A DNA stretch of 28,236 nt from positions 3,292 through 31,527 of IMG/VR virus record IMGVR_UViG_3300030085_001082; one strand, written 5' to 3'. Numbering within the stretch: the first letter of the stretch is position 1; every line of letters starts with the position of its first letter. The notes under the pieces are model-generated. The model made no database searches and was not told where the DNA came from. It was given only the letters and a program-made list of their open reading frames with translations. This document shows, in pieces, positions 923-11,095 of the stretch. A program made the position numbers and the translations under genes. Source of the stretch: a virus.

Positions 923-1843
923 TTACTTTCCTAATGTCATTAAAATATTTAATATCATAGCCATCACATTGATTTCTTTATCAACGACCATTGAGTCTTT
1001 ATATTGACCATCGGCTATATTCAAAATTGTGTGTCCAACTTTACCACTTGCATATGAGTCTACTTCATCATAAAGTGCTCTATACAATGGTGTAAAGTCT
1101 TTCACTTTAGAGTCTGCAATAATTTGTCTTATAGTATTGAACTTTGTTTTCATTTCACCACTATCTTGTAAAACTTTAATTACATCCTCGGTGTAGTTTG
1201 CCTGAATCGTAGATGTAGTATCTATTTTTAACTCACCTTTGACAACTTGTCTTTGTGCCGAGTTCAATACTCTACGAATATCAGGGTAACCACTATTGAC
1301 CAAAATTGCTAAGTCTTCTTTTTCAAACTTAACTGATTCCTCGTTTAATATATCAAACAATCTTTTAGCCACTTCCTTCTTTGAAGGTGGTGTTATTGCG
1401 AATGTCTGACAACGAGATTGAATTGGGTCAATAATTTTTTCTACATAGTTACAAGTTAAAATGAACCTTGTAGATTTACTAAAAGTTTCCATTAGATTAC
1501 GAAGAGCTGCTTGAGCATTTGGTGTCAAATAGTCTGCTTCATCTAATATAATAACTTTCCACTTTCTGAAACCCATTGATGATGCGAATCCACGAATCTT
1601 ATCACGGACTGCATCAACAGAGTTTTCATCAGAAGCGTTGATATACATCAAATCACAATCAATCTGATTGGTGATTATCTTTGCGAGTGTAGTCTTACCT
1701 GTTCCTGCAACTCCATAGAGTAACAAGTGTGGTACATCCTCATTCTCAATGTATATCTTTACTTTGTCTAAGATATGTTGATTACCAACATAACCATCTA
1801 ATGTATCGGGTCTATACTTTTCAACCCATAGTGAATTACTCAT
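923..1843 (-). CDS. 44: Clamp loader large subunit, AAA+ ATPase (T4 gp44-like)
   Basis: A 306-residue AAA+ ATPase of the RFC small-subunit/gp44 type, which opens the gp45 sliding clamp and loads it onto primer-template DNA. It begins with the hallmark WVEKYRP (residues 6-12). Walker A is GVAGTGKT (44-51), Walker B is VIILDEAD (97-104), and the SRC arginine-finger motif is at 143-145. The frame is open upstream to 1885, but the ATG at 1843 puts WVEKYRP at the usual distance and gives an ATGA overlap with the preceding stop, so I chose it. T4 gp44 is 319 residues. It is separated from gp45 by the DruA-like gene, unlike in T4. Confidence 0.96.
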   Translation of the reverse strand: MSNSLWVEKYRPDTLDGYVGNQHILDKVKIYIENEDVPHLLLYGVAGTGKTTLAKIITNQIDCDLMYINASDENSVDAVRDKIRGFASSMGFRKWKVIILDEADYLTPNAQAALRNLMETFSKSTRFILTCNYVEKIIDPIQSRCQTFAITPPSKKEVAKRLFDILNEESVKFEKEDLAILVNSGYPDIRRVLNSAQRQVVKGELKIDTTSTIQANYTEDVIKVLQDSGEMKTKFNTIRQIIADSKVKDFTPLYRALYDEVDSYASGKVGHTILNIADGQYKDSMVVDKEINVMAMILNILMTLGK

Positions 1844-3030
1844 CGACCTACTTCTTTTAAATATGTTTCTTTTGCTTTGTCCCAACTCATTCCAATAATA
1901 TCCATGTAATACAATGTATCTGGTTTCAATCTGTTTTCATCATGTAACTTAGTGTATCTTCTGATAGCTTTCTTTTTCCACCATCTGATTGTATAATCGT
2001 CACCTTCTTCAAACTTCTTCTTCATCTTAAGTTGACTTTCATCAATCTCATTTCTAAGAAATTCATTTCCGTTGTCATACATCATTGCGAAGTAAACACC
2101 TCTTTTGAATCCATGTTGATATTGTGTACTTTTGATTCCTAACTCTTTAAAAATCATAGACAATATTCTTTGCTTGATACCAGATACAGGTCCTTGAATA
2201 CCTTCTTTTTGAGTTGTAACCTTTTTATATTCTTCGGATTTGTTTTCTTTAATCCATTGATGCCAGATATCGTAAAATTCATTATCAGGTTTAGTAGAAA
2301 CTTTACCTGTTGATTCACCTAATGTTTTGAAGTGTGGGATTCCATTATACTGAGAATGAATTCCATAAAGAGAAGTTGTACCAACTGCGATAAGAGTTTG
2401 TCCATACTTTTCTTTCCACAAATCTCTGAATGTAGGTGAGGTTGTTAATGCTGATACAAGTTTACCACCTAAGAAATTATATCCTAAAGGTTGTGTTGCG
2501 ATGATAGATGTTCCAATCGTAGTATGATTTAACTTACCATCTTTAAACTTATTCTCTTTATCCCAACCAATGTACTTATCACGAACACCTAAAGATGTTA
2601 CATCAGAACCAAGAGATATTACACCAAGGACTTTACCACTTTTTCGGTCTTTAGCAAATGCTTTTATATTACGACCAGGATTAGCAGTAAATTCCATAGA
2701 TGAAATACACTTACGAATGTCAGTCCACTTCGCAGTGCCTGATGAATCTGTAATTAACTCAACATAAGGTTCTAATTCCTCAATTTCTTTGATTGTTAGT
2801 TCCTTATTGTAAATGTCAGTTGGAGTCCAAATCATATCAAAAGACTTTGCAAGACTTGGTTTTCTTGCCATAGACTTTGGTAAATCTGAATTCCATTCCT
2901 GCCACTTTTTGTAAAGAGTTTGTTCTTCGACAGGCATAGTAGACAAATACTCCATGTTGTCAATGAATCGTTTTCTCTCTACATCGTAGTCAAAAACAGG
3001 TTTCGCTGGTTCTGTATCCCAAAATTGCAT
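1840..3030 (-). CDS. DruA-like protein (DUF4338-like) in the clamp/clamp-loader operon
   Basis: A 396-residue protein lying between the sliding clamp and clamp loader genes, where T4 has none. Its start overlaps the gp45 stop by one base (TAATG) and its stop overlaps the gp44 start (ATGA), so it is translationally coupled to both. The middle carries a series of motifs I associate with DUF4338, the domain of DruA from Druantia anti-phage systems: LGVISLGSD (135-143), RDKYIGWD (150-157), GGKL (188-191), WKEKYG (205-210), TTSLYG (218-223) and SQYNGIP (226-232). The C-terminal 120 residues are rich in Lys, Arg and Trp and probably bind nucleic acid or protein. The biochemical function of DruA proteins is not something I can state, and a phage version could do something quite different. 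Confidence 0.78.
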   Translation of the reverse strand: MQFWDTEPAKPVFDYDVERKRFIDNMEYLSTMPVEEQTLYKKWQEWNSDLPKSMARKPSLAKSFDMIWTPTDIYNKELTIKEIEELEPYVELITDSSGTAKWTDIRKCISSMEFTANPGRNIKAFAKDRKSGKVLGVISLGSDVTSLGVRDKYIGWDKENKFKDGKLNHTTIGTSIIATQPLGYNFLGGKLVSALTTSPTFRDLWKEKYGQTLIAVGTTSLYGIHSQYNGIPHFKTLGESTGKVSTKPDNEFYDIWHQWIKENKSEEYKKVTTQKEGIQGPVSGIKQRILSMIFKELGIKSTQYQHGFKRGVYFAMMYDNGNEFLRNEIDESQLKMKKKFEEGDDYTIRWWKKKAIRRYTKLHDENRLKPDTLYYMDIIGMSWDKAKETYLKEVGR

Positions 3031-3747: not shown

Positions 3748-3779
3748 TTAATATACGAAATTTATTTTTAAAATCCAAA
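3748..3779 (-). promoter_or_regulatory. Bacteroidota-type promoter for gp45
   Basis: On the minus strand TTTG (3779-3776), 20 bases, then TATATTAA (3755-3748). It overlaps the last codons of gp43. The same TTTG-N20-TATATTAG arrangement precedes six other gene starts here. Confidence 0.75.
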
Positions 3780-6284
3780 AAATTCTGAAGCTTTATTTAG
3801 ATTTGGGTTTGGTTTCTCCCAATCCATAGCTTTATAGAAGTCATCAAGTTTATTTTCTAACTCCTTTTCCCAAATTTTATCGTAGTCAATATATTGTTCT
3901 ACAAGTTTTAAAATCTGAGGTGGGTCATTATGTCCTTTCAGACCCGTTGCCTCTAATCCAAGAGGATTCTTTTTCAAATATACCCACTTTATCTTGTCAC
4001 CATCTTTCATAGGTTCGTATTTATATGGTACTTTATAAAAAGCAAGTAATTGATTGTATGTTATTGCTGCCTTTACATGAGCAGGTGAACCTTTTTTAAA
4101 CTCACCCAATACTTGTGTTTTTGTTGTATATTTACTCATACCTTTGACTGCTGAGTTCTTTGCGATATCAATAAATGGTCTATCTTCCATTTCTTTTTTA
4201 TAGTCAAGAATCTTAGTATCAATTTCTTTTTTATCAACGGACCTTAGAATATCTAACAAAACAGTTTTCATAACTTCTTTGAAGTAAGTTGGGAATGAAC
4301 TTCTTTTAACATCCAATCCTTTTACATCTAACTTGTCACAATCAACTTCGTTATCATTGATAATCCATTGTGCGTATCTTTTCTTTGATACCCAAAATCC
4401 ACCCTTTGCAATTGTTTCTTGTTTGATATCAAATTTATGAGAATCAATATTAAACAATCGTTTTGCCATTGTATCATAAACCTTGTTGATATGAGTTTCT
4501 ACTTCTTTTGCTGCGGATAGAATCGCAGGAATCATTTCTTCATCCGAATCCTCATTGAGTTCAGGATTACGAGATTTTACTAATGGAGCGGCCTGATAAA
4601 AAACAGAATCAGTATCGGTATAAACATTGTAGTCATCTTCTTTTCCTATTACTTTTGAATAATATTGATTTGCAATCAACTCAGTTGTTTTAATTACAGT
4701 TTGACCTGTAATCGTAGTTGCCTCTGCGTTATCTACATCATAGAATCTGAATGATGGTAGTCCCAACACTCCATACAATGAGTTCAACATAATCTTTTGT
4801 ACCAATTGTCTTTTACCATAGAACTTGTATTGTTCGTCATTACCTTCTTTACCATACTTTTTCATCAAGTTTTTGTATTCAACTCTTTTGTCAAACCAAA
4901 CACTTAGTATCTCAGGTATAACTCCAACTTTATCAGTTCTATATAAAACACCATTTGCGGCAACAGAGTATTTGTTTTTCTCAATAAACTTTAGAAACTT
5001 TTCTTTAGGTAAAGGTGGAAACTCATTACCACCATCATCTATAATTGAATAAGTTTCAAGATTACCTTTCATATGTTGTTCAGCAGAATAACCTTTTAGT
5101 TTACCAATCTTGGTCTCAGGTGATATATTGATACTCATAATAATAGATGGATATAGAGAAGTTAAATCCAAATCGTAAACCCATTTGTAAAGACCAGGTT
5201 TAGGTTCTTTTACATACGCACCTGTAAATTTACCTTCACCATCAGAACCATCTTCATTTCTTGGTTTTCGTCTTGGTTTGTTGGGCGCTACCCTACCACT
5301 TCTTCTAAGGAATGTTAATATTGCTCCTTCTAACCATTTTGATGAGAATAAAAAATCTTCGTAGAACACATGACCTGTGTGACATATTGCTCTTGCCAAA
5401 TCAATGAACTGAAGTTTTTTATCCAAGTCCACTACTAATTCAACATCAACTAAGTTGTACTCAATAAACTTCTCTATATCATCCCTAAATAATTGGTCCA
5501 AGTTACCTTCATATTCAATCTTACCTCTACCCAACTCAATAGTTGCTACCGTGTCTAATCGATAGTTAGGTAATTCGGTAAAGTTGTAACACTTATAAAG
5601 TGCTAAATAATCCAAACAACTAACACCACCAATAATGTATCTACTTCTATATTTGTTATAGGATACTTTACCAATCGGTGACAACTGATTTGCGAATTGT
5701 TGACCAAACAATAGTTTGTATCTATTGTAAAGATAAGTAACATCAAAGTAGTCTATATTCCAACCTGTAACTATTGTTGGATTTATTTCTCTCCACTTTG
5801 TCATGAACGCTGATAATAGACCTTCTTCAGTATCAAATGATTCTACCTTAGCTCCTTTGATTGTTTTATCAATCTTTTCACCTTGATTGACAACATAAAC
5901 AAAATAATCATTTGTAATAGAATCGTGACCTGCGATTGAAGTGATTGCGTTACTTGCCGTTTCTATGTCAGGCAACCCACTATTCATTTCAACCTCGATA
6001 TCAAATGTCATGATTGTATGTCCTGTTGAAACTTCATCAGAGTCACCATACTCATCAATTAAGAAACGAGTCATTTCGTTTACATCTGATTCATATAATT
6101 GTAAATCATCGTCTGCTTTCCAAAAATTTAATTTCTTGAGTCTTTCACCATGAATAGATTGGTGTGCTCCGTTTCCATCCCTCACATAAGCATATCTACG
6201 ATACTTAGATGTAAAGTAACCTTTCTGGTCATCCCAACAATGGATGATAGACTTTTCTTTTTCGAAGAATACATTTTGATACAT
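3768..6284 (-). CDS. 43: Replicative DNA polymerase, family B (T4 gp43-like)
   Basis: An 838-residue family B polymerase with proofreading exonuclease; T4 gp43 is 898 residues. Exonuclease motifs are complete: Exo I D95/E97 (FDIE), Exo II N176 to D181 (GWNIDYFD), Exo III Y276/D280 (YNLVD). Polymerase motif A is DLTSLYPS (373-380), motif B has K497 and YG at 504-505, and motif C is YTDTDS (555-560). The extreme C-terminus, ASEFFGF, fits a clamp-binding tail like the one T4 gp43 uses to contact gp45. Its ATG lies only 4 bases beyond a -7 promoter element, so the transcript from that promoter would be almost leaderless; no Shine-Dalgarno is visible. It is complete and looks active. Confidence 0.98.
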   Translation of the reverse strand: MYQNVFFEKEKSIIHCWDDQKGYFTSKYRRYAYVRDGNGAHQSIHGERLKKLNFWKADDDLQLYESDVNEMTRFLIDEYGDSDEVSTGHTIMTFDIEVEMNSGLPDIETASNAITSIAGHDSITNDYFVYVVNQGEKIDKTIKGAKVESFDTEEGLLSAFMTKWREINPTIVTGWNIDYFDVTYLYNRYKLLFGQQFANQLSPIGKVSYNKYRSRYIIGGVSCLDYLALYKCYNFTELPNYRLDTVATIELGRGKIEYEGNLDQLFRDDIEKFIEYNLVDVELVVDLDKKLQFIDLARAICHTGHVFYEDFLFSSKWLEGAILTFLRRSGRVAPNKPRRKPRNEDGSDGEGKFTGAYVKEPKPGLYKWVYDLDLTSLYPSIIMSINISPETKIGKLKGYSAEQHMKGNLETYSIIDDGGNEFPPLPKEKFLKFIEKNKYSVAANGVLYRTDKVGVIPEILSVWFDKRVEYKNLMKKYGKEGNDEQYKFYGKRQLVQKIMLNSLYGVLGLPSFRFYDVDNAEATTITGQTVIKTTELIANQYYSKVIGKEDDYNVYTDTDSVFYQAAPLVKSRNPELNEDSDEEMIPAILSAAKEVETHINKVYDTMAKRLFNIDSHKFDIKQETIAKGGFWVSKKRYAQWIINDNEVDCDKLDVKGLDVKRSSFPTYFKEVMKTVLLDILRSVDKKEIDTKILDYKKEMEDRPFIDIAKNSAVKGMSKYTTKTQVLGEFKKGSPAHVKAAITYNQLLAFYKVPYKYEPMKDGDKIKWVYLKKNPLGLEATGLKGHNDPPQILKLVEQYIDYDKIWEKELENKLDDFYKAMDWEKPNPNLNKASEFFGF

Positions 6285-6288
6285 AAGT

Positions 6289-6320
6289 TAAATATACAAA
6301 AATTTTATGACATTACCAAA
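6289..6320 (-). promoter_or_regulatory. Bacteroidota-type promoter for gp43
   Basis: On the minus strand TTTG (6320-6317), 20 bases, TATATTTA (6296-6289). The -33 box lies in the last codons of the upstream Mom-like gene. The -7 box ends 4 bases before the gp43 ATG, implying a leader of roughly 0-2 bases. Confidence 0.72.
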
Positions 6321-7101
6321 AACTAACTGCGTTTTCTGGTGTATAAGTTTCATGTTTTTCTATTGGTGGTAAAAACTCCTCAGGGTCTTTTGGATATGGA
6401 CTTGTTTTGTGTTTTAACATTTTACTAAGTTTCCGTTTTTCCGATTTATTCTTACCTAAGATTTGAATGTACCTATGTTTAGGCGCCTCTTTCTTTCGCC
6501 AGAACTCTCTTACATTCTGCTTTCCTATTTCTTTTTTTAAATGTTCTACATTATGTGACCCCCACTTAGAAAATACAGTCCTTGAATGAATCCAATCGTA
6601 AGGACTATCACTAAGTGATACTGAATAGTTTGGCATTAGTTGTATATCACGACAATCTTGATATAACCAATTAGTTGCTTGATAAATGCCACCGAGGTGT
6701 AATTGTTCAGGGTCTGCGTAACTTAACAACATTTTAATTTTTGGTGCGTTTTCTTTCATCCATTTAAAAGACTGACCCATTGCGTATGATTCTATATTTG
6801 AACCATATCCATCATGGATGAACAATCTTGTCAACTCCAAACACTCATCTTTCTCTAAACCATCAATTACAGACTTAATAGCTGAACGACCTACGGGATA
6901 TCCATATACCAAGCAACCAATTAGTTTTTCACTACCAAAGAATCCATCATCACCATTGTAATATACACCGAGTGCATATCTACACATAGTCCACGCATGA
7001 GAGTAGTGATATTTTATAATCATCTGTTTTGCCACACTTTTATTGATTTCTCTAATAGAAACCTTTGATGTGTCTACATAATGTTTATTAGGTTCTTTCA
7101 A
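6313..7101 (-). CDS. Mom-like GNAT-fold protein, copy 2 (candidate DNA base modification)
   Basis: A 262-residue paralogue of the gene immediately upstream. Conserved blocks shared with it, in order, are KSVAK (21-25), HYS, YPVGR (GYPVGR here, GDPIGR in the other copy), ELTRLF, SYADP (SYSDP in the other), YQATNW and PKHRYIQIL. This order is what I associate with Mom-type proteins, GNAT-fold enzymes; phage Mu Mom converts adenine to a methylcarbamoyl-adenine that blocks restriction. The start is a TTG at 7101: an in-frame TAG lies three codons upstream, no ATG occurs before residue 27, and from the TTG the N-terminus aligns gaplessly with the other copy. It overlaps that copy by 14 bases. Substrate and product are unknown. 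Confidence 0.75.
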   Translation of the reverse strand: MKEPNKHYVDTSKVSIREINKSVAKQMIIKYHYSHAWTMCRYALGVYYNGDDGFFGSEKLIGCLVYGYPVGRSAIKSVIDGLEKDECLELTRLFIHDGYGSNIESYAMGQSFKWMKENAPKIKMLLSYADPEQLHLGGIYQATNWLYQDCRDIQLMPNYSVSLSDSPYDWIHSRTVFSKWGSHNVEHLKKEIGKQNVREFWRKKEAPKHRYIQILGKNKSEKRKLSKMLKHKTSPYPKDPEEFLPPIEKHETYTPENAVSFW

Positions 7102-7840
7102 TTGGTTCTAATTTTTTTATTTCTTCTTCAAATAACTCACTCTGTTTAGGATATGGTAATGAAGGGTATTTTAAACTCTTTAATATACGACTTTTTTTTG
7201 ACTTATCCAAAATATAAATGTATCTATGCTTTCTTGGTTCTTTTTTTATCCAAAAAGTTTTACCAATTACCTTTTGTATTTTAGTTGGATTATTAGTTCC
7301 ATAATATGGAAAAATTGTTCTACCATGTTGCCACTCACCATTTTCCTCAAACTTAAATAACCAACTATCATTTGGTCTAATTCTATTTCCTTGATATATC
7401 CAGTTTGTAGATTGATAAACAGTTCCCAGATGACCTGCTTTTGGGTCTGAGTATGATATTAATCCTTTAATATGTCTTGCGTGTTTTCTTAACCACTTAA
7501 ATGTTTGTCCAACAAACCAACTCTCAACATTACATCCATATCCATCGAATACGAATAATCTTGTGAGTTCTAACACTTCTTTTCTGTCTAATAACTCTGA
7601 TATTGATTGACCAGAGTGTCTTCCGATTGGGTCACCATATGTTGCAACACCGATTAACTTATCTGTTGATGAAAAGAAAGAGTGTGAATCATCCTCGACA
7701 TATAACCCCAAACAATAACTAACTTTAGTCCAAATACCACTATAATGGTTTTTTATGATAATGTCCTTTGCTACTGATTTTGAGATAGGTCTTACGGATA
7801 ACTTTGAAATATCTGTATACTCTTTCCCTTTAATTTTCAT
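7088..7840 (-). CDS. Mom-like GNAT-fold protein, copy 1 (candidate DNA base modification)
   Basis: A 250-residue protein with HYSGIW (32-37), LIGVATYGDPIGR (62-74), ELTRLF (91-96), SYSDP (129-133), GHLGTVYQSTNW (136-147) and KHRYIYIL (204-211). These are the landmarks of the Mom-like branch of GNAT acetyltransferase-fold proteins common in phages. Mu Mom modifies adenine in DNA; whether this protein acts on DNA, and with which donor, cannot be read here. It begins with an ATGA overlap on the small helix-turn-helix gene and is followed by a diverged second copy, so the three genes form one unit behind their own promoter. The 5-prime end is well supported by alignment with copy 2. Confidence 0.78.
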   Translation of the reverse strand: MKIKGKEYTDISKLSVRPISKSVAKDIIIKNHYSGIWTKVSYCLGLYVEDDSHSFFSSTDKLIGVATYGDPIGRHSGQSISELLDRKEVLELTRLFVFDGYGCNVESWFVGQTFKWLRKHARHIKGLISYSDPKAGHLGTVYQSTNWIYQGNRIRPNDSWLFKFEENGEWQHGRTIFPYYGTNNPTKIQKVIGKTFWIKKEPRKHRYIYILDKSKKSRILKSLKYPSLPYPKQSELFEEEIKKLEPIERT

Positions 7841-8040
7841 TGATAATCGTTAAATTCACCGAACAATAAATGTTTCCAAGTTTCACCTCTAACTATTTTT
7901 CTTATGTTAGCAGGTGACACACCATTGTTTCTTGCCAATACTCTAATGTTACGATGACCAACAGACCACAACTTACGAATAGACCTTACTTGTCTTTCCG
8001 TTAATTTATGTTGTGGATGTAATTCACCTCTTAATGCCAT
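7837..8040 (-). CDS. Small helix-turn-helix DNA-binding protein
   Basis: A 67-residue basic protein: GELHPQHKLTERQVRSIRKL followed by a helix-turn-helix reading LARNNGVSPANIRKIV and then GETWKHL. This is the same arrangement as the DNA-binding segment found beside HNH homing-type endonucleases of phages, here without a nuclease domain. It may be a stand-alone regulator or a remnant. The frame is open to a GTG at 8055, but that codon lies inside the -7 promoter element and would not be transcribed, so I chose the ATG at 8040, which has AAAAGG 7-8 bases upstream. It is the first gene of the unit with the two Mom-like genes, so control of them is possible. Confidence 0.8.
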   Translation of the reverse strand: MALRGELHPQHKLTERQVRSIRKLWSVGHRNIRVLARNNGVSPANIRKIVRGETWKHLLFGEFNDYQ

Positions 8041-8054
8041 TCTAAACCTTTTCA

Positions 8055-8086
8055 CTAATATACAAAATTTTTATTAATTTTCCAAA
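8055..8086 (-). promoter_or_regulatory. Bacteroidota-type promoter for the HTH/Mom-like unit
   Basis: On the minus strand TTTG (8086-8083), 20 bases, TATATTAG (8062-8055). It overlaps the 3-prime end of the oxygenase gene. It rules out the GTG start at 8055 for the downstream gene. Confidence 0.78.
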
Positions 8087-8631
8087 AATAAATCACCAAC
8101 TTCTAAACCAGATGGTACTTTATCCCATAAGTTGATTGCGATTGCTCTTCTTGTACCACGAGTAACTTTAGTAACTCGATGTGTATGTTCACCTGCAGGA
8201 AATATAACCAATCTATTATATTTTGGTTCTAATCTTTCAGGTTCACCATGTTGCCCATGTGGATAAATTTCAAGGTAACCACCATCGATATCATTTTCCC
8301 ATGGATAAAAAACAGTACCTATTACAGGTGTAACTATTTCTTTTGTTTGATTATACCAATACTCATCTTTATCAAAATGAAATGGTAAATCATCTCTTTC
8401 TTCGGTTGATGAATAAACACCAATCCAATATTCAAATCCCTCAACATTTACTGATGGGTATGGTGAGTTTTCACCCCAAATATATTGTATCAATCTTTTT
8501 TTAATTGTATTTGCAGGTGAGTTCCACCAACCATCCCACCACATATAACCTTTGGTATCAAAGAAGGTCGTGTCATTCTTTAGGTCATTTAATAGTTGTT
8601 GGTCTTTTATGAAATCATCTATTACAATCAT
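8074..8631 (-). CDS. 2OG-Fe(II) oxygenase family protein
   Basis: A 185-residue protein with the double-stranded beta-helix iron site: HFD at 85-87 gives the HxD pair, a distal His sits in GEHTHRV (149 or 151), and Arg161 or 162 in TRRAIAINLW is the expected 2-oxoglutarate ligand. The family uses 2-oxoglutarate and O2 to hydroxylate proteins, nucleic acids or small molecules. Such proteins are frequent in T4-like cyanophages and other marine phages, with mostly unknown substrates. It overlaps the UDP-galactopyranose mutase gene by an ATGA, which hints at a shared pathway such as modification of a glycan or virion protein, but this is inference. Confidence 0.88.
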   Translation of the reverse strand: MIVIDDFIKDQQLLNDLKNDTTFFDTKGYMWWDGWWNSPANTIKKRLIQYIWGENSPYPSVNVEGFEYWIGVYSSTEERDDLPFHFDKDEYWYNQTKEIVTPVIGTVFYPWENDIDGGYLEIYPHGQHGEPERLEPKYNRLVIFPAGEHTHRVTKVTRGTRRAIAINLWDKVPSGLEVGDLFLEN

Positions 8632-9719
8632 AAGTCTTCTACTTTCTTTAGTGCCGATGCGATTACTTGGTGCATATCGTAATACTTGTATTCTGCTAAT
8701 CTACCACCAAATATAACTTTATCTTGTGCATCAGCTAATTTTTTATACTTTTGATATATCTCGTTGTTAGTTTTATCATTTACAGGATAATATGGTTCTA
8801 CTCCCCTTTCATAAGGTTGTGGATACTCCCAACTAACATAAGTTCCTTTTTGATTTTGATTATCAAAATGTTTATGCTCTATAACTCGTGTATATGGTGT
8901 TTCTGAGTCCGTATAATTCATTAATGCACATCCTTGATGATTATCTTTTGATTTATACATCTTACTCATCCAATGTAAAGACTTGTATTCCAAATCACCA
9001 TACTTGTAGTCAAAATACAAATCAATCGGACCTGTATAAATTACTTTATCACCCAACCCATCCCAAAAATCTTTTTTATCAAAATAATCTGTATTTGTAA
9101 ATACTTCAACATCCTCTAATAATCTTTCAAATATCTGAGTGTATCCACCAATTGGTATTCCTTGATATTTGTCATTAAAATAATTGTTGTTATATGTGTA
9201 TCTTACGGGCAGTCTTTTGATAATTGACTTTGGAAGTAACTTAGCTGGCTTCATCCATTGTTTTTGAGTGTAACCTTTTATTAACTTTTCGTAAATATCT
9301 TTACCAACAAGTGCCTCTGCTTGTTCTTCTAAATTAGTAGGATTACCTTCAAATCTTTGTGACTCAATCTTTTGTTTTGCTCCTTCAGGTGTTGTCACTC
9401 CCCACATTTTATTGAATGTGTACATATTGAAAGGTAATGGATATATCTCACCTTTATAGTTTGCAACTATATTAAGTTGAAACTGATGAAAATCTACAAA
9501 CTGATTTATCCAATGCCAAACCTTTTCATTATTTGTATGAAATATGTGTGGTCCATATTTGTGTACATGAATACCTTCTATCTCTTCGGTATAACAATTA
9601 CCACCAATGTGGTCTCGTTTTTCAATAACACAAACCTTTTTACCTTTTTCTTTAAGTTCATATGCACATACTGCCCCAAAGAAACCTGAACCCACTATTA
9701 CATAATCATATTTAGCCAT
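8628..9719 (-). CDS. glf: UDP-galactopyranose mutase
   Basis: A 363-residue flavoenzyme that interconverts UDP-galactopyranose and UDP-galactofuranose. The N-terminus has the FAD-binding Rossmann motif VGSGFFG (9-15) and a following IEKRDHIGGNCY segment. Further family marks are KYGPHIFHTNN, YPLPFNMYTFNKMWG, KGYTQKQW, YTGPIDLYFDYKYG and TRVIEHKHF; conserved Arg residues in the last regions contact the UDP-sugar diphosphate. The length is normal for bacterial Glf (about 370) and nothing looks broken. It overlaps the glycosyltransferase gene by 8 bases. Glf feeds galactofuranose into surface polysaccharides in bacteria, so the phage may alter host glycans or decorate its virion. Confidence 0.96.
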   Translation of the reverse strand: MAKYDYVIVGSGFFGAVCAYELKEKGKKVCVIEKRDHIGGNCYTEEIEGIHVHKYGPHIFHTNNEKVWHWINQFVDFHQFQLNIVANYKGEIYPLPFNMYTFNKMWGVTTPEGAKQKIESQRFEGNPTNLEEQAEALVGKDIYEKLIKGYTQKQWMKPAKLLPKSIIKRLPVRYTYNNNYFNDKYQGIPIGGYTQIFERLLEDVEVFTNTDYFDKKDFWDGLGDKVIYTGPIDLYFDYKYGDLEYKSLHWMSKMYKSKDNHQGCALMNYTDSETPYTRVIEHKHFDNQNQKGTYVSWEYPQPYERGVEPYYPVNDKTNNEIYQKYKKLADAQDKVIFGGRLAEYKYYDMHQVIASALKKVEDL

Positions 9720-10842
9720 CTATTCCTTGTAATGCGATTAAGTGTAGTCTGCTTGGTTCATCACTCGTATCGGTATATGAGTGGTCTTCAATCAAAAATT
9801 GCCATTTTGGGAATGGATTTTTTCTGTTAGCATCAACTAACATTTTTGTAGCTTGAAGCATTCTGTGATAATCTTTGTTCTTTTCATGGATTTTCGCCAA
9901 TAGTGTAAAGTTTTCATTTCTATCAGGACAAAACTCATGTGCTCTATTTAACCATTCTATTGCTTTTTCAGTTTCACCTATAAGTTCATATGCATTACCA
10001 ATACCTAAACAACACCAATAAGTAAACTCATCACCGACTACATCTATTTTATTGAAAAATCTATATTCTGGATTTACAACATAGATATATTGTTCAAAGT
10101 AAAATATACATCTTCGTACAAACTCTTTTCTGTGGTCTTCACCAAATGGAAAATCACTTCTAAGAGTATCATAATAGGACTTTGCTATATAAAATAAGTG
10201 ATATTTATCTTCTAATATCTTGTTATTAGGTACTGTATCTAATTCTAAGTTTAGTGCATCTTTTAGAAACTTCATAGGGTGTAACCATGTCTGTCCATCA
10301 TTGGTTAAAATATGTCTAAACTTTTTATCTAAATTTACTCTTTGAAAAGTTTCCCCTATATTATCTCTATCTAAGTAAATTGTCTCATGTGCTTTTTCAG
10401 GATAAAATCTCCAAGGTTCTTTAGCATTCCATAACCAAGTTCTGAAATACATTATACCAGGCCCTTGACATGGTACATTCCAACTTTGTACTGATGTATC
10501 ATTAAACACCGACCAATCGAAATCATCATCGACTTGTAATTGTTCATCTGCATCAACTCTAAGAATCCAATCACATCCGTGGTCTGCCTCTAATGCGGTT
10601 CTTACACAATGGTCTCGATTTATACCATGTCCCTTCCACCAATCTAATTGATATAGGAAACCAGGTATTCCCTTCTCGTTAAAAAAGTTTTTAATTATCT
10701 CTTGAGTTCCATCGGTTGAACCATTGTCTTGAATAACCCAATAGTCAATGTATGGATATACACTTTCTAACATTCTCTCAATAACATGAGATTCATTATT
10801 AACCATTGTGTTAAAACAAAACTTTGCAGTAGTGTTTTTCAT
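9712..10842 (-). CDS. Family 2 glycosyltransferase with a C-terminal helical repeat region
   Basis: A 376-residue protein. The N-terminal GT-A domain has the nucleotide-sugar motif DNGSTDGT (39-46) and the metal-binding DADE (97-100). The second half (about residues 200-376) is helical, with a TPR-like stretch around GNAYELIGETEKAIEWLNRA and a further helix pair after it. This is the layout of SPBc2-type/TPR-containing family 2 transferases. Donor and acceptor are not readable. The 8-base overlap with glf makes UDP-galactofuranose a possible donor. It starts 16 bases after the thioredoxin-like gene, in the long unit downstream of gp41. Confidence 0.9.
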   Translation of the reverse strand: MKNTTAKFCFNTMVNNESHVIERMLESVYPYIDYWVIQDNGSTDGTQEIIKNFFNEKGIPGFLYQLDWWKGHGINRDHCVRTALEADHGCDWILRVDADEQLQVDDDFDWSVFNDTSVQSWNVPCQGPGIMYFRTWLWNAKEPWRFYPEKAHETIYLDRDNIGETFQRVNLDKKFRHILTNDGQTWLHPMKFLKDALNLELDTVPNNKILEDKYHLFYIAKSYYDTLRSDFPFGEDHRKEFVRRCIFYFEQYIYVVNPEYRFFNKIDVVGDEFTYWCCLGIGNAYELIGETEKAIEWLNRAHEFCPDRNENFTLLAKIHEKNKDYHRMLQATKMLVDANRKNPFPKWQFLIEDHSYTDTSDEPSRLHLIALQGIDG

Positions 10843-10858
10843 AACTTATTTTATTTCT

Positions 10859-11095
10859 TTATGCAGATAAATACTCATTCATAGGTTTAACACCAATGTG
10901 TCTTTTAACTTCTTGTCCACCTTCTAACAGAACTACTGTTGGTACACTTCTGATTCCATACTTCTGTGCGAAGTCGGGTTGTTCATCTACATTTACTTTT
11001 TTTACAGGAATAGTGTTACTCACTTGTTCCATTACGGGACTCAACATTTTACATGGTTGACACCATGGTGCTGAAAAATACAAATATTCTTTCAT
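10859..11095 (-). CDS. Short thioredoxin-like protein
   Basis: A 78-residue minimal thioredoxin fold with an APWCQPCK active site (Cys12, Cys15) and the cis-proline at SVPTVV (Pro52). It is shorter than E. coli thioredoxin (about 108), closer to phage T4 thioredoxin/glutaredoxin size. It follows nrdA by 14 bases, and NrdA ends in a CxxC tail that such a protein would re-reduce, so it most likely is the electron donor of the ribonucleotide reductase. The start is supported by AGG about 10 bases upstream. Confidence 0.92.
   Translation of the reverse strand: MKEYLYFSAPWCQPCKMLSPVMEQVSNTIPVKKVNVDEQPDFAQKYGIRSVPTVVLLEGGQEVKRHIGVKPMNEYLSA

Follow-up and report, generated by a model that had tools for sequence, protein, structure and literature searches.

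The closest described system is the Mom protein of phage Mu (PDB 8bv8; NC_000929 Mup55). Mu has a single copy of mom, and a small upstream gene, com, that overlaps mom and is annotated as a translational regulator. To our knowledge, Mom modification has been little studied outside Mu. That a phage can have multiple Mom genes is already published: passages of one paper (PMC7824862) describe five in the jumbo phage vB_PaeM_PA5oct, propose that multiple Mom enzymes help against several restriction systems, and describe the Mom domains of jumbo phages as typically fused to REase-fold domains. For a GNAT that is coupled to an ABC ATPase, with phage pT24 as a named example, the same passages predict that a DNA base receives an acyl modification not yet characterised (PMC7824862). 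The closest isolate relative of the proteins described here is the Mom-like protein (gp53) of Polaribacter phage P12002L. It is ~45% identical to both of them and is encoded by a single gene beside a DNA methyltransferase gene in a 48.7-kb genome.

We analyzed a stretch of 28,236 nucleotides (the window) from an uncultured T4-like phage; it comprises positions 3292-31527 of a 31.5-kb virus record. Its replication genes are of the T4 type and its main genes all lie on the minus strand. Read along that strand, the genes are those for thioredoxin, GT2 glycosyltransferase, UDP-galactopyranose mutase, 2OG-Fe(II) oxygenase, a small helix-turn-helix (HTH) protein, MomB, MomA, gp43, gp45, a DruA-domain protein, and the clamp loader (Table 1). 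That is, there are two adjacent Mom genes behind an HTH gene and next to the gene for a gp43-like DNA polymerase, as a sequence-only reading of this DNA had described. The nearest polymerase match of the gp43-like protein is PolB of Microcystis phage Mel-JY01, to which it is 48.5% identical along its entire length, and gp43 directly follows the Mom pair in the window and in its closest relatives. The stop of the HTH gene overlaps the start of MomB by 4 bases, and the stop of MomB overlaps the start of MomA by 14 bases. A TTG start is usual for MomA: of the full-length MomA loci examined, 79 of 111 have it, with some contigs entering the count twice.

This arrangement is similar to that in Mu in that a small gene lies upstream of, and overlaps, the first Mom gene; the likeness drawn here between com and the HTH gene is one of position and overlap. 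In contrast to Mu, there are two copies, each ~25% identical to Mu Mom, and in contrast to the fused Mom domains of jumbo phages (PMC7824862, in the passages cited above) these are stand-alone paralogues in a fixed tandem beside gp43. A literature search, which covered few subscription papers, found no published account of tandem Mom genes next to gp43. As far as our searches reach, what is new is the fixed tandem pair, the occurrence of MomA without MomB but never of MomB without MomA, and a swap site beside gp43.

Table 1. Positions of the features discussed. Coordinates are those of the window unless a relative (L number) is named.
Feature	Position	Strand	Basis or remark
Thioredoxin-like gene	10859..11095	minus	named from sequence; in relatives usually upstream of the HTH gene
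Row of 2OG-Fe(II) oxygenase, UDP-galactopyranose mutase and GT2 glycosyltransferase	8074-10842	minus	upstream of the HTH gene
Small HTH protein gene	7837..8040	minus	phrog_517 and phrog_59 matches; position conserved in relatives
MomB, 250-aa Mom-family GNAT protein	7088..7840	minus	ATG start; PF25680, phrog_1384, fold
MomA, 262-aa Mom-family GNAT protein	6313..7101	minus	TTG start; PF25680, phrog_1384, fold
Family B DNA polymerase (gp43-like)	3768..6284	minus	downstream border of the site; similarity to Mel-JY01 PolB
DruA-domain protein	1840-3030	minus	PF14236, 1e-18; between gp45 and gp44
Nmad1-like gene piece (borderline)	3-224	minus	beside clamp loader small subunit; shortened by the window edge and by a stretch of N in the record
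Nmad1 candidate, full 136-aa gene of a close relative	L005 15615-16025		PF07659, 24.1 bits
MomC, examples	L010 12073-12687; L014 13233-13844; others		PF25680 3.2e-34 for L010
ABC-ATPase/GNAT fusion, 393 aa	L145 4219-5400; L166 4219-5400		same site as the Mom pair
Group-1-like glycosyltransferase, 377 aa	L225 3864-4997; 13 other loci		between MomA and gp43; weak Pfam match

We found that both proteins belong to the Mom family, as the sequence-only reading had claimed. MomA and MomB matched Pfam PF25680 (Mom) with 166.3 bits (E = 9e-49) and 156.5 bits (E = 9.2e-46), respectively, both exceeding the curated cut-off of 27.1 bits, and matched phrog_1384 of PHROGs (1.9e-46 and 4.7e-54). Both also matched the sequence of PDB 8bv8, 'Methylcarbamoylase mom' (MomB, 2.6e-11; MomA, 1.8e-9). 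The AlphaFold models (pLDDT 89.1 for MomA and 88.9 for MomB) were closest to Mu Mom and have the GNAT-type fold. For MomA the top PDB match was 8bv8 (Z 21.3, rmsd 4.3, 181 residues aligned), and the next row had Z 11.8. For MomB the top match was again 8bv8 (Z 20.2, rmsd 3.9, 188 aligned), followed by a row with Z 12.3. The two proteins are identical to each other at 122 of 254 positions (48%).

The sequence-only reading stated that the two share every core motif, and this was borne out. We aligned 151 Mom proteins (73 MomA, 58 MomB, 13 MomC, 5 of a single-copy group Q, Mu Mom, and the P12002L protein; those shorter than 190 aa were excluded) and found 16 positions that are invariant in 151/151, Mu Mom included. 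With Mu residues numbered as in NC_000929, these are H58, Y59, G81, E108, L109, R111, D116, N121, E123, S124, S146, D149, G156, Y159, N163, and H183. S124 sits in the motif NSES; the chain in 8bv8 carries Ala at this position and the PDB title reads "inactive mutant S124A". The equivalent residues are S105 in MomA and S107 in MomB, and the position is Ser in 151/151. Mutagenesis of Mu Mom has reportedly indicated that the Arg, Asp and Tyr residues equivalent to R111, D149, and Y159 are important.

The MomA and MomB clades are both under strong purifying selection. The median dN/dS (Nei-Gojobori, pairs restricted to dS 0.1-1) was 0.064 for MomA (221 pairs) and 0.095 for MomB (196 pairs). Both copies are apparently intact, to judge from their sequences, and the idea that one of them is a decayed pseudo-enzyme is rejected on the basis of the purifying selection and by the invariant residues in both. 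The two clades also differ consistently. Eight columns of the alignment are fixed to different residues in MomA and MomB at ≥90%, including C40-R41 in MomA vs V40-S41 in MomB, and MPN in MomA vs NDS in MomB in the loop past the NW motif. This loop is longer in MomA and MomB than in Mu Mom. From this divergence alone we infer that MomA and MomB may differ in specificity.

The MomB-MomA pair is an old, fixed cassette. In a tree of 65 dereplicated proteins (near-identical rows were excluded from the Mom trees), MomA (100/99), MomB (99/99), and MomC (98/92) each fall on one side of a branch. Group Q, from phages that carry Mom between gp45 and gp44, joins MomA (94/72), and the P12002L protein branches outside of MomA, MomB, and Q. 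Because MomA and MomB form separate supported clades, their split predates the sampled phages, in agreement with the old duplication proposed in the sequence-only reading. Among 98 loci with MomB followed by MomA (some contigs are counted twice, from two scans), the gap from MomB to MomA was -17 in 58, -14 in 25, +4 in 12, and another value in 3. MomC (~205 aa) is a third, distant Mom that is encoded downstream of gp43 in some relatives. A PF25680 search of 19 records found two Mom genes in 10, three in 3, one in 2, and none in 4. A tandem Mom pair was absent from all 63 loci that came from genomes of bacteria and archaea, and an origin of the pair in chromosomes or in defence systems was rejected on this ground. 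One locus (L294), on what appears to be a phage contig within a MAG, has two Mom genes ~1.6 kb apart beside gp45/gp44.

We found that MomA occurs without MomB, and that MomB was accompanied by another Mom at every locus that could be scored. We compared loci anchored on MomB (IMG/VR, best 80 of 210 relatives), on MomA (IMG/VR, 47 loci), on the HTH gene (best 80 of 144), and on gp43 (best 80 of 263); these samples overlap in contigs. We counted full-length genes with room beside them, excluding Mom genes of less than ~200 aa. A Mom gene was present downstream of MomB in 78/78 MomB-anchored, 44/44 HTH-anchored, and 21/21 gp43-anchored loci; 2, 3, and 0 additional MomB loci, respectively, had no room beside the gene. 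In contrast, there was no Mom gene upstream of MomA in 14 of 39 MomA-anchored, 7 of 48 HTH-anchored, and 3 of 25 gp43-anchored loci. On a 47-row tree, the state of the locus (alone, paired, or with MomC) changed at least 5 times, and the starred branches force 4 changes for the label 'alone'. Based on the asymmetric counts and the changes on the tree, it appears that MomA can function by itself and that MomB is retained only together with another Mom.

The sequence-only reading had suggested that the two proteins might form a heterodimer. An obligate heterodimer is weakened because MomA stands alone repeatedly, and as stated it is not supported: several lineages have MomA without MomB. A related explanation is that MomB is functional only in a complex with MomA, to which it contributes specificity or stability, and that MomA also functions as a homomer where MomB has been lost. 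The constant presence of another Mom beside MomB, in these overlapping samples, is consistent with this explanation, and the overlapping reading frames favor coupled translation. However, MomB keeps every invariant catalytic residue, which is unexpected for a pure scaffold subunit, and the MomA proteins in lineages without MomB are working enzymes if conservation implies function. We consider such a heteromer unlikely.

It is also conceivable that the two copies are redundant, that is, that both use one target and one donor and that a second copy simply means more enzyme. MomA and MomB do have the same fold and the same conserved residues. However, loss or homogenisation would be the expected fate of copies kept for dosage, whereas the split here is deep, the clades are fixed for different residues, and the pair has been retained long-term. 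This explanation appears quite improbable to us.

We also determined what lies between the HTH gene and gp43 in relatives of this phage. Among the best 80 of 144 HTH-anchored loci, the HTH gene was followed by MomB and then MomA in 43, by MomB and then a shorter Mom in 1, by MomA alone in 7, by MomB without a further recognised gene in 13, by gp43 without Mom in 12, and by nothing in view in 4. Four of the 12 loci without Mom (L145, L158, L160, L166) had a gene for a 393-aa ABC-ATPase/GNAT protein in the site; it was read directly in L145 and L166 and was found on all four contigs in the gp43-anchored scan. In the remaining loci without Mom, 3 bases separated the HTH gene from gp43 where this was measured. 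A PF25680 search of one record with an empty site (L157, 180.8 kb) found no Mom anywhere. Because the phages with an empty site (L157 and others) have no Mom, the pair is dispensable for this type of phage.

The gp43-anchored scan (best 80 of 263 relatives) involved no selection for Mom or HTH. Both borders were in view in 53 loci, which form 28 clusters at 95% gp43 identity. In the other 27 loci, 17 of which had less than 2.5 kb of upstream sequence, no HTH gene was detected within view, and these loci are outside the cluster count; three of these (L231, L236, L252) show the Mom pair. The site contained the Mom pair in 8 clusters, MomA alone in 3, and a methyltransferase gene with MomC and MomA in 1. 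It contained the ABC-ATPase/GNAT gene in 2, a methyltransferase gene only in 4, and an AGT/TAGT glycosyltransferase gene in 1. A PLP-enzyme gene and a 'ParB-like' gene were present with a methyltransferase-like gene in 2 clusters and without it in 1. Four clusters had a thymidylate-synthase-like gene, an Asn synthase or synthase-like gene, a PLP-enzyme gene, and a methyltransferase-like gene. One site was empty and one had other content. Thus, 12 of 28 clusters had Mom and 25 of 28 had at least one DNA-modification-type gene, with class labels (HMMER) that derive from relatives of single representatives. The site glycosyltransferase, of the TET-associated type, matched the PHROG for beta-glucosyl-HMC-alpha-glucosyltransferase (1.8e-44), and a 415-aa methyltransferase-like class was below the Pfam cut-off. 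The 'ParB-like' label is putative, from sequence motifs; a Pfam search of these genes gave no match.

We tallied Pfam matches in one representative per cluster. The 82 ORFs in the site included Mom (21), N6_N4_Mtase (14), Thymidylat_synt (4), GNAT (2), and TAGT (1), and the 39 ORFs downstream of gp43 included DruA (9), N6_N4_Mtase (3), MethyltransfD12 (3), Mom (2), and TAGT (2). Modification-type ORFs made up 42/82 in the site vs 7-10/39 downstream (p = 0.0006-0.01). When Mom was excluded, the values were 21/61 vs 5-8/37 (p = 0.03-0.25). The whole neighborhood therefore abounds in modification genes, and it is chiefly Mom that sets the site apart.

Mom and the other contents of the site were mutually exclusive, although not absolutely. 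The PF25680 profile, which matched 15 of the 19 records searched above, found Mom in 0 of 12 records with other site content. A PF01555 search of 21 records gave a match in 1 of 12 Mom-bearing records (G008, below the cut-off) and in 6 of the 9 others. The exception is the site with a methyltransferase gene together with MomC and MomA (L277). Two of the alternative contents are of particular note. The ABC-ATPase/GNAT protein of L145 had no Pfam model above cut-off, is not a Mom by Pfam, and is 54.5% identical to a protein of Tenacibaculum phage pT24. The match is by sequence, and we presume that this is the protein named in the cited passages (PMC7824862). The sites of L278, L282, L283, and L286, each with a short thymidylate-synthase homologue and the associated genes listed above, hold a candidate pyrimidine hypermodification pathway. 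A hydroxymethyl-pyrimidine pathway in the Mom phages was not supported: each Mom record searched had at most one PF00303 match, with a score of the full-length thymidylate-synthase type.

We lean toward the reading, from comparative sequence analysis, that MomA and MomB are two active, long-separated, DNA-adenine-modifying Mom paralogues, that MomB likely provides a second target preference or additional coverage, and that the site swaps modification systems. The cassette most likely momylates phage adenines with two specificities; that is, the phage probably uses two variants of one chemistry to mask its own DNA. MomA, MomB, and the upstream HTH gene would be on one shared transcript, and their expression would be timed with replication through their place beside the polymerase gene. 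Each Mom would bind a CoA-type donor in its GNAT fold and place the Mom group on adenine N6 in newly made phage DNA, and the modified adenines would block host restriction enzymes. MomA would suffice alone, and MomB would add a second target-sequence preference or raise coverage and would be retained only where MomA is present. At the HTH-gp43 site, a clade of T4-like phages would exchange one DNA-modification system for another. The pair fits the proposal, in the passages cited above, that multiple Mom enzymes help against several restriction systems (PMC7824862). The sequence-only reading had spoken of a hypermodification pathway; DNA modification is the likely role, but what the window shows is two single-step enzymes rather than a demonstrated pathway. 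That the Mom enzymes instead modify RNA, protein or host DNA for host takeover is the least probable explanation: protein acetylation is known from other GNATs, and the same paper, in the passages cited, discusses phage GNATs with host RNA polymerase as their substrate (PMC7824862), but the match to Mom is far above that to other GNATs (Z ~20-21 vs 12) and the alternative contents of the site are DNA-modification genes.

A more general proposal, which we offer tentatively as possible but short of probable, is that this T4-like clade has, between the HTH gene and gp43, a dedicated exchange site that swaps chemically unrelated DNA-modification systems and keeps their action coupled to replication. 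The commonest occupant in near relatives would be the two-enzyme Mom system, with MomA self-sufficient and MomB an obligate companion that widens specificity.

The HTH gene was conserved upstream of the site whether Mom was present or absent, and in some relatives it directly precedes gp43 with no Mom between. Because it persists where Mom is absent, the HTH gene is a marker of the site and is not dedicated to Mom, and a Mom-specific HTH regulator, the partner implied by the sequence-only reading, is rejected as stated. The more likely start is the ATG at 8040 (67 aa); the alternative is a GTG at 8055 (72 aa). The protein matched phrog_517, HTH DNA binding protein (3.4e-5), and phrog_59, HNH endonuclease (3.5e-5). 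All of its matches were of the HTH type: Pfam HTH_28 (0.015, below cut-off), and phrog_59 and phrog_20467 over residues 13-63. Its GenBank relatives are mostly annotated as HNH endonuclease, and it resembles the HTH segment of these enzymes. It may regulate the site, or it may be the remnant of a homing endonuclease that once carried cargo there.

A fixed pair of paralogues with asymmetric loss provides natural genomes with single, double, and triple Mom genes in which to find determinants of target sequence. In addition, the interval from the HTH gene to gp43 is an anchor for finding unknown DNA-modification systems in uncultured phages; two such candidates here are the ABC-ATPase/GNAT fusion and the thymidylate-synthase-like/Asn-synthase/PLP-enzyme cluster.

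The gene at the start of the window, which the sequence-only reading called possibly Nmad1-like, is borderline: the full gene of a close relative matched PF07659 ('Nucleotide modification associated domain 1', Nmad1 / DUF1599) with 24.1 bits (E = 4.6e-5), against a cut-off of 25 bits. This gene is also present in phages without Mom (L218-L220). The oxygenase, mutase, and GT2 row upstream of the HTH gene is variable among relatives and is likewise found in some without Mom. Many relatives with the pair encode the group-1-like glycosyltransferase between the MomA and gp43 genes; the window does not. The DruA-domain gene is odd inside a replication module, and is at or near the same place between gp45 and gp44 in many relatives that have the Mom pair.
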